DNA from: a virus
Length of the DNA stretch: 23,219 nucleotides
IMG/VR virus record: IMGVR_UViG_3300029990_000054
Span: 1 to 23,219 of that record
Reading direction: 5' to 3' (one strand)
Under the pieces are notes generated by a model. That model worked only from the letters and a program-made list of their open reading frames with translations. It had not been told where the DNA came from and did not search any database. A program made the position numbers and the translations under genes. This document shows, piece after piece, positions 1-490 of the stretch (position 1 is its first letter; the number at the start of each line of letters is the position of its first letter).

Positions 1-114
1 GACCACTTCTAGGAAACGCATGGCGCGGTCGTCGTTTGCGACTTGCAGGCCTCGTTGCTTTAGCAGTTCCAATTGCTGTTCTACGCTGAGGGCCGGCTTG
101 TCGAAGGGCCTCAT
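1..114 (-). CDS. Abi_2-family abortive infection protein (AbiF/AbiD-like), N-terminal fragment
   Basis: The first 38 codons are in the window; the gene runs off the left edge. The N-terminus reads MRPFDKPALSVEQQLELL, then KQRG, NDDRAMRFL. This K-P-(A/L)-x-x-x-E-Q-Q-x-x-x-L-K-x-R-G opening is typical of Abi_2 proteins (AbiD/AbiF), which abort phage infection and whose AbiF branch has been proposed as an ancestor of Cas13. The C-terminal HEPN-type catalytic motif is outside the window, so activity cannot be judged. The start is set by a GGAG Shine-Dalgarno eight bases upstream. A small terminator-ended RNA sits immediately upstream on the same strand, the arrangement reported for AbiF. The gene lies outside the prophage attachment core, so it belongs to the host chromosome or to a neighbouring element. 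The family call is from memory of conserved residues. Confidence 0.72.
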   Translation of the reverse strand, partial: MRPFDKPALSVEQQLELLKQRGLQVANDDRAMRFLEVV

Positions 115-130
115 GTAGTTTTCTCCAGGC

Positions 131-191
131 AAAAAAAACCCGCACGATTTGAGCTTGCTGACTGGGTCAGCCTAGGCTTGGCGGGTGTGTT
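131..191 (-). ncRNA. Candidate abiF-type small RNA upstream of the Abi gene
   Basis: A ~60-nt transcript is predicted between a near-consensus promoter (-10 at 204-199) and a run of eight U (138-131). Its ends pair through ACCCGC (186-181) with GCGGGU (143-138), directly followed by the U-run, so the closing stem doubles as an intrinsic terminator. Inside is a perfect 6-bp hairpin, GCUGAC-CCA-GUCAGC (171-157). A structured RNA upstream of AbiF genes (the abiF RNA motif) is known from comparative genomics and has been reported to act as the RNA antitoxin of AbiF. That this locus is such an RNA is inferred from position, promoter and structure; I could not compare it with a covariance model. 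Alternatively it is only an attenuator in the abi leader. Confidence 0.6.
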
Positions 192-198
192 GGGGTGC

Positions 199-226
199 AT
201 TATAGGTAGCTGCGGCAGGTCGTCAA
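199..226 (-). promoter_or_regulatory. Sigma-70 promoter for the small RNA / abi gene
   Basis: On the minus strand TTGACG (226-221) and TATAAT (204-199) are separated by 16 bases. The -10 hexamer is perfect and the -35 differs at one position. The expected start, around 192-190, lies just before the structured RNA, so the promoter should make the RNA first and the abi mRNA only by read-through of the terminator. Confidence 0.7.
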
Positions 227-409
227 CGTGATGCTGAAGCGAATTTGTAACGTGCGGGAGGGCCGGCAGGTTTTGGTGCAGGGCAGGAATTTTGGGGAAG
301 GGGGTCATTTGAGAGAGGCTGGAAGCTTAAGCCTTTTAGCTTGACTCGCGGGCTAGGCAGCTCTTCTCAAGGAGGTGTAGCAGTTGGATTTTTTATGGGT
401 ACAAACAAC
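227..409. other. Intergenic flank, no gene recognised
   Basis: Reading both strands I find no supported gene here. Short open frames on either strand have low-complexity or proline-rich translations and run across the RNA, the terminator or the tRNA fragment. A GGAGG at 371-375 precedes an ATG at 395, but that frame would read through the tRNA remnant into the antisense of the integrase. Confidence 0.5.
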
Positions 410-437
410 AAGGCCCCTGCATTTCTGCAGGGGCTTT
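410..437 (-). terminator. Intrinsic terminator of the tRNA-Thr transcript (possibly bidirectional)
   Basis: GCCCCTGCA (413-421) and TGCAGGGGC (426-434) form a perfect 9-bp stem with a TTTC loop, extended by A/T pairs on both sides. T-rich sequence follows in both directions. It lies directly 3' of the tRNA fragment (CCA end at 446), as expected for the native tRNA terminator, and marks host sequence left of the attachment core. Confidence 0.8.
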
Positions 438-445
438 GTTTTGTA

Positions 446-490
446 TGGTGCCGGCACCAGGAATCGAACCCGGGACCTACTGATTACAAG
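446..490 (-). other. Attachment core: 3' 45 nt of tRNA-Thr(UGU)
   Basis: On the minus strand the sequence starts in the anticodon loop (CTTGTAATCA), continues through the variable region and T-arm (GTTCGATTCC) and ends in the acceptor strand TGCCGGC plus CCA. The 5' half of a tRNA is absent: bases above 490 do not continue an anticodon or D-arm. This is therefore not a functional tRNA but the phage-host junction left by site-specific integration into the 3' end of a tRNA-Thr gene. The integrase lies 118 bp away. The intact tRNA should be at the other end of the prophage, outside the window. Confidence 0.85.

Follow-up and report, generated by a model that had tools for sequence, protein, structure and literature searches.

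An abiF RNA and the start of an AbiF gene at a contig edge

The DNA analyzed here (the window) is the 23,219 nt IMG/VR viral record IMGVR_UViG_3300029990_000054. Its left edge carries, on the minus strand, a promoter, a small structured RNA, and the beginning of an Abi_2 family gene (Table 1). Position 1 is a contig edge only, and the AbiF gene is truncated there, with 38 of ~329 codons present. The promoter has 11 of 12 consensus bases, whereas 0.1 such sites are expected in the region from shuffled sequences, and its −35 and −10 elements are largely kept in Pseudomonas moorei and other Pseudomonas. From the promoter spacing, transcription is predicted to start at ~191. The RNA motif lies directly 5′ of the Abi_2 start codon on the same strand. 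A U tract of U6 to U9 is kept at the same position in intact Pseudomonas loci, and most clade-A relatives also have the GGAG Shine–Dalgarno sequence 5′ of the gene. A simple terminator scan reported no terminator in the region because its loop limit is 8 nt. The original prediction had named the −35/−10 pair, a segment with paired ends and an internal 6 bp hairpin, the eight U, and the Shine–Dalgarno sequence; all are present on the minus strand where it put them. Judged by sequence features, the layout is that of a type III-like toxin–antitoxin locus, with the antitoxin RNA 5′ of the toxin, one promoter, and a terminator between them.

Table 1. Features of the window and of related loci (L numbers denote loci in other sequences).
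Feature	Location	Strand	Basis
Sigma-70-type promoter, TTGACG-16-TATAAT	226–199	minus	−35 TTGACG 226–221, 16 nt spacer, −10 TATAAT 204–199
abiF RNA (putative antitoxin), predicted ~60 nt	131–191	minus	Promoter spacing, fold, RF03085; both ends predicted
abiF RNA motif	138–185	minus	RF03085 full-length match, R1 model, covariation
Basal stem of abiF RNA	185–180 paired with 145 and 143–139	minus	Ends pair, ACCCGC/GCGGGU
Inner 3 bp stem of abiF RNA	178–176 paired with 154–152	minus	Fold
Apical 6 bp hairpin of abiF RNA	171–166 paired with 162–157	minus	Fold
U8 tract just 3′ of basal stem, predicted intrinsic terminator made by the antitoxin RNA	131–138	minus	Sequence
Shine–Dalgarno GGAG, 8 nt before ATG	123–126	minus	Read from sequence
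AbiF (Abi_2/AbiD family) toxin gene, first 38 codons	1–114	minus	ATG at 114–112; cut by contig edge
3′ part of tRNA-Thr(TGT), attachment core	446–490	minus	Host match ends at 490
Prophage tyrosine integrase, right of junction	608–1750	minus	PHROG 1 integrase, E = 1.1e-38
Stand-alone abiF RNAs in phages, no Abi_2	L120:2507–2543, L121:2508–2544, L122:2505–2541, L126:2502–2537, L249:1497–1534, L253:1497–1532		RF03085 at or above gathering score
Stand-alone abiF RNAs (RF03085 at or above gathering score) in viral contigs, no Abi_2, including	L002, L004, L016, L020, L145, L160, L190, L205, L206
RNA kept, AbiF truncated, frameshifted, or missing	L030, L031, L032, L034, L036, L038, L042, L044, L046, L057, L058, L067, L068, L081, L085

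The RNA belongs to the abiF family

In a lenient search, the Rfam model of abiF RNA (RF03085) aligned over its full length (model positions 1–37) to window positions 185–138 with a score of 34.2 bits (E = 1.5e-4). The gathering score of this family, 37, is 2.8 bits higher, and abiF RNA is therefore absent from the output of a default Rfam scan. The shortfall arises because the loop is 19 nt long instead of ~9 nt; the 10 extra nucleotides, relative to RF03085, are closed by a covarying hairpin. Every pair of the model is formed at the window site, and the core CCAAGCCU...GCUCAAAUCG is identical. A covariance model (R1) built only from a second Pseudomonas clade and two outliers, with no close relative of the window RNA among them, recovered the site as its sole match in 23 kb (55.4 bits, E = 2.6e-11).

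Across 25 Pseudomonas RNAs, 99.5% of the cells in the paired columns are paired, compared with at most 37% for control structures shifted by 1 to 3 columns. Two-sided changes occur in 6 of the 15 pairs, five of them in the 6 bp apical hairpin, and the inner stem shows an A-U to U-A swap between two clades. The basal stem is invariant across this set; covariation support for it comes from the phage copies described below, where the stem varies freely. By energy alone the fold is modest (minimum free energy −18.4 kcal/mol, z = −2.2 relative to shuffles), as a chance hairpin or an ordinary terminator beside an Abi gene would be, but that reading is refuted by the compensatory changes in the 25 RNAs and by the R1 match; the RF03085 match also speaks against it. 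The candidate RNA antitoxin of the original prediction, which named a covariance-model search as its check, thus emerges as an RF03085-type RNA with support from both models (the Rfam match standing below gathering) and from covariation; antitoxin action is known for such an RNA elsewhere, in Clostridioides difficile.

The AbiF protein and its linkage to the RNA in Pseudomonas

Over the 38 codons present, the window protein is identical to residues 1 to 38 of a 329-residue AbiF in a Pseudomonas prophage contig (L003), in keeping with the Abi_2-type N terminus first proposed for it, and these 38 residues match PADLOC AbiD with E = 4.7e-5. The full-length L003 protein matches PF07751 (E = 2.7e-45), PADLOC AbiD (E = 4.7e-62), and the solved PbAbiF, 8VZ6 (phmmer, E = 6e-47). 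The AbiF of P. moorei is likewise complete at 329 amino acids (PF07751, E = 4.8e-45). The orthologs, including that of P. moorei, carry the HEPN motif RNCCAH at R235/H240, a position that in the window protein falls beyond the contig edge. These two residues align in spacing and context with R210/H215 of PbAbiF, which are reported as needed for activity (PMC12373285). The full-length relatives thereby uphold the assignment of the gene to AbiF. We rejected membership in CRISPR-Cas13, which requires two HEPN domains; the orthologs are ~329 amino acids long and have one R-x4-H motif. Between AbiF and Cas13, only an ancestral relationship has been proposed (PMC12165695, PMC12737573).

Every inspected Pseudomonas AbiF with about 43% identity or more to the window AbiF, a clade at ~47% among them, has an abiF RNA directly upstream, and no intact AbiF of this subfamily lacking the RNA was seen among the inspected Pseudomonas loci. 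Distant Pseudomonas Abi_2 proteins (30–37% identity) have no abiF RNA upstream, so the RNA belongs to one subfamily. In a second Pseudomonas AbiF clade (L105–L115, about 43–49% identity) the RNA has changed in step: AUGCC...GCACAAAUUG replaces AAGCC...GCUCAAAUCG, and the apical hairpin covaries. Further copies were sought with the relaxed pattern GCCAAGCYN{4,34}RGCTCAAATCG; its matches L021, L022, L024, L025, and L027 were dropped as chance matches within coding genes.

Of 40 Pseudomonas loci in which the sequence downstream of the RNA could be read, 15 retain the RNA beside a decayed toxin gene; the set was picked by RNA core, so this proportion is not to be taken for a population frequency. 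Several of the 15 also have a broken basal stem. The toxin is broken in 5 of 6 broken-stem loci versus 10 of 34 intact-stem loci (Fisher p = 0.02, ignoring shared ancestry, and with L050, which has a frameshift near the gene end, counted as intact); that broken basal stems accompany broken toxins is suggestive only. The asymmetry by which the RNA is often kept with a broken toxin, and no intact toxin of this subfamily was seen without the RNA, would be expected of an antitoxin and lends comparative support to that role. The same frequent decay could mean that the window copy is a relic in which RNA and promoter persist and the AbiF gene is broken beyond the contig edge. We consider this unlikely, although it is the most serious of the alternatives for this copy: the basal stem is intact here, the gene of the nearest genome is intact at 329 codons, and the 38 codons present show no lesion.

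Stand-alone abiF RNAs in phages

A first pattern scan returned viral contigs that have an abiF RNA and no AbiF beside it. With RF03085, RNAs at or above the gathering score, in records without any Abi_2 gene, were found in Acinetobacter phage Acj61 (58.0 bits), Mycobacterium phages Thibault (54.9 bits) and LittleE (49.9 bits), Roseobacter phage CRP-143 (50.8 bits), Salicola phage CGphi29 (50.1 bits), and Rhizobium phage RHEph21 (38.0 bits). Scores were slightly lower in Whirlwind, DuncansLeg, Vibrio phage VH-5, and Sulfurimonas phage SNW-1. The AbiF-bearing phage phiC2, our positive control, was detected in both the RNA and the Abi_2 searches. The carriers include T4-like (Acj61) and T7-like (CRP-143, RHEph21) phages as well as Omegavirus mycobacteriophages; T4-like and T7-like phages are usually virulent.

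Among viral-contig records with a candidate RNA copy, a PF07751 search found no Abi_2 in 39 of 40, and all 12 candidate copies tested with Rfam pass gathering. The loop motif matched 117 times, and 40 of these matches are flanked by a stem of 6 bp or more, versus a mean of 4.0 and a maximum of 11 in 1000 shuffles that permuted the right-hand arms among loci. The 40 stem-bearing copies use 26 different left arms and far outnumber the shuffled expectation, so what is conserved in the basal stem is its structure and not its sequence. The stand-alone copies occupy intergenic spots and tRNA arrays, and their basal stems covary freely. One such RNA has been reported in cyanophage S-CREM1, with three more phage copies in Rfam and no anti-AbiF reading (PMC9964418).

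Lactococcal phage sk1, for which a reference in PMC12737573 is cited as describing a region of its DNA by which phage 712 is protected from AbiF, yielded no hit to RF03085 with the E-value limit relaxed to 10. Two blast matches were discarded: that in Pseudomonas phage Cygsa01 lies inside a gene and has no RF03085 match, and that in Bacillus phage P59 has no RF03085 match either. Other candidate structured RNAs lie beside phage tRNAs (L121:3888–3969, L253:2530–2611, L252:1427–1496): DUF3800-IV-like RNAs, below gathering, in Omegavirus phages, and in Bacillus phage P59 a skipping-rope RNA that scores above gathering.

The phage copies bear on how the RNA beside abiF would act. A motif that doubles as a terminator 5′ of the start codon must affect readthrough, and the C. 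difficile RNA RCd22 also reduces transcription of abiF in cis (PMC12373285), as would suit a cis-acting attenuator (terminator or leader) of abiF with no antitoxin action of its own. Such a purely regulatory role is improbable, however: the conservation of the loop (CAAATCG and flanks) exceeds what a terminator needs, relatives of the RNA act in trans and bind AbiF (PMC12373285), and the same RNA is kept in many phages without any AbiF gene, where it has no abiF to regulate in cis.

The module lies in host DNA beside a tRNA-Thr attachment site

Window positions 1 to 490 match P. moorei CCUG 53114 at 93.7% nucleotide identity, and the match stops exactly at 490, inside tRNA-Thr(TGT). Beyond this point P. 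moorei continues into a complete, uninterrupted tRNA-Thr(TGT), and the window into phage DNA. ARAGORN detected the whole tRNA-Thr gene in P. moorei but no tRNA-Thr in the window. P. moorei, the nearest genome, thus has the empty site, with the same abiF RNA and a complete AbiF beside an uninterrupted tRNA-Thr gene. Because the same 490 bp adjoin the uninterrupted gene there, the module is, by this comparison, host DNA outside the prophage, with the junction at 490, downstream of the tRNA gene used as attachment site. This agrees on both counts with the original prediction of a pseudomonad locus just outside an integrated phage.

Prophages do carry Abi_2 genes in some cases (PMC12373285), and the contig is classed as viral, so that the module might instead be cargo of the integrated prophage. 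That origin is highly improbable in view of the P. moorei empty site; moreover, the orientation of the tRNA fragment places abiF host-side, and the tRNA 3′ end with its abiF RNA flank is common to eight other viral contigs (L003, L005, L007, L011, L014, L015, L017, L019). By blastn, the window start had no match among phages and two weak matches among plasmids, one of them to an Abi gene.

The module lies 140 to 334 nt after this tRNA in many Pseudomonas genomes. The tRNA-Thr(TGT) 3′ end is a prophage attachment site used repeatedly in Pseudomonas, and the abiF module is left host-side each time. In L014 (47–94, minus strand), an abiF RNA in the tRNA-Thr flank runs straight into a second terminator, after which the contig ends; no AbiF start is visible, and this is possibly an RNA-only host locus.

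Discussion

The Pseudomonas pair is an additional member of the known AbiF/abiF RNA group of type III-like toxin–antitoxin systems, of which the window has 38 toxin codons. The locus itself is very probably a chromosomal AbiF-type, type III-like toxin/RNA–antitoxin module of a Pseudomonas close to P. moorei, 3′ of a phage-occupied tRNA-Thr(TGT).

A close functional reference is AbiFCd/RCd22 of the C. difficile prophage phi027, for which toxicity, neutralization in trans, direct binding, and the catalytic R/H have been shown (PMC12373285). There, a promoter lies upstream of abiF and transcripts mostly terminate before the gene; RCd22 binds AbiF and neutralizes it in cis and in trans, requiring intact stems; and the toxicity of AbiF depends on R202 and H207 (PMC12373285). 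Both systems have a sigma-70-type promoter, an abiF-motif RNA, a terminator, and AbiF in one transcription unit (predicted for the window), and they share the HEPN motif RNxCAH (RNQCAH in C. difficile, RNCCAH in the Pseudomonas orthologs). RCd22 differs in having two abiF motifs and a separate terminator hairpin, whereas the window RNA has a single motif, an extra 6 bp apical hairpin, and a basal stem that with U8 forms the predicted terminator. AbiFCd/RCd22 also sits in a prophage lysis module, unlike the window module in host DNA beside tRNA-Thr. With one motif instead of two, stoichiometry and regulation may differ from those in C. difficile. PbAbiF with its AbiFr ncRNA (PDB 8VZ6; Zilberzwige-Tal et al., as cited in PMC12373285 and PMC12737573), a 300-residue protein from a Prevotellaceae bacterium whose catalytic R and H align with those of the orthologs, resembles them at the protein level; it is described as binding one RNA molecule per monomer, which would suit the one-motif window RNA.

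A contractile-tailed temperate phage has integrated into tRNA-Thr(TGT) just 5′ of the module. On the model of these relatives, we infer the following scheme for the window copy. A single promoter would drive both abiF RNA and AbiF, and most transcripts would end after ~60 nt, the basal stem and U8 of the abiF RNA acting as its own terminator. The released RNA would bind the HEPN ribonuclease AbiF and hold it inactive, and occasional readthrough would yield AbiF mRNA. A disturbed balance of RNA to protein, with phage infection as the presumed cause, would leave AbiF free to cleave RNA, and growth would stop.

The phage abiF RNAs may serve in counter-defense, as surplus or decoy antitoxin for host AbiF by which the abortive response would never be triggered; we regard the case for this as evenly poised. 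The host module in the window would, if so, be the kind of target against which the phage RNAs evolved. The pseudo-ToxI of phage PhiTE is likewise a phage copy of a host RNA antitoxin without its toxin (PMC3475682). ToxIN belongs to a different toxin family, and counter-defense by PhiTE has been shown experimentally (PMC3475682), whereas for the phage abiF RNAs it is suggested by their occurrence without AbiF. Since several phage copies sit in tRNA arrays, these RNAs might instead have a different, tRNA-related role. The copies might also only seem toxin-free, owing to divergent AbiF genes missed by PF07751 or to incomplete contigs.

Because AbiF is the proposed ancestor of Cas13, and its RNA the proposed forerunner of a guide, there is use for well-defined pairs from a tractable genus such as Pseudomonas. 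That of P. moorei is a compact version in which antitoxin fold and terminator are one element, and the second clade, with its RNA changed in step, makes cross-neutralization and specificity directly testable. Interest beyond a new Pseudomonas member rests on the orphan RNAs of phages. Anti-phage pressure could not be demonstrated for the AbiF studied in PMC12373285. If the phage copies do block AbiF, they would constitute RNA counter-defense across many unrelated phages and would speak for AbiF as a genuine selective force on phages in nature.
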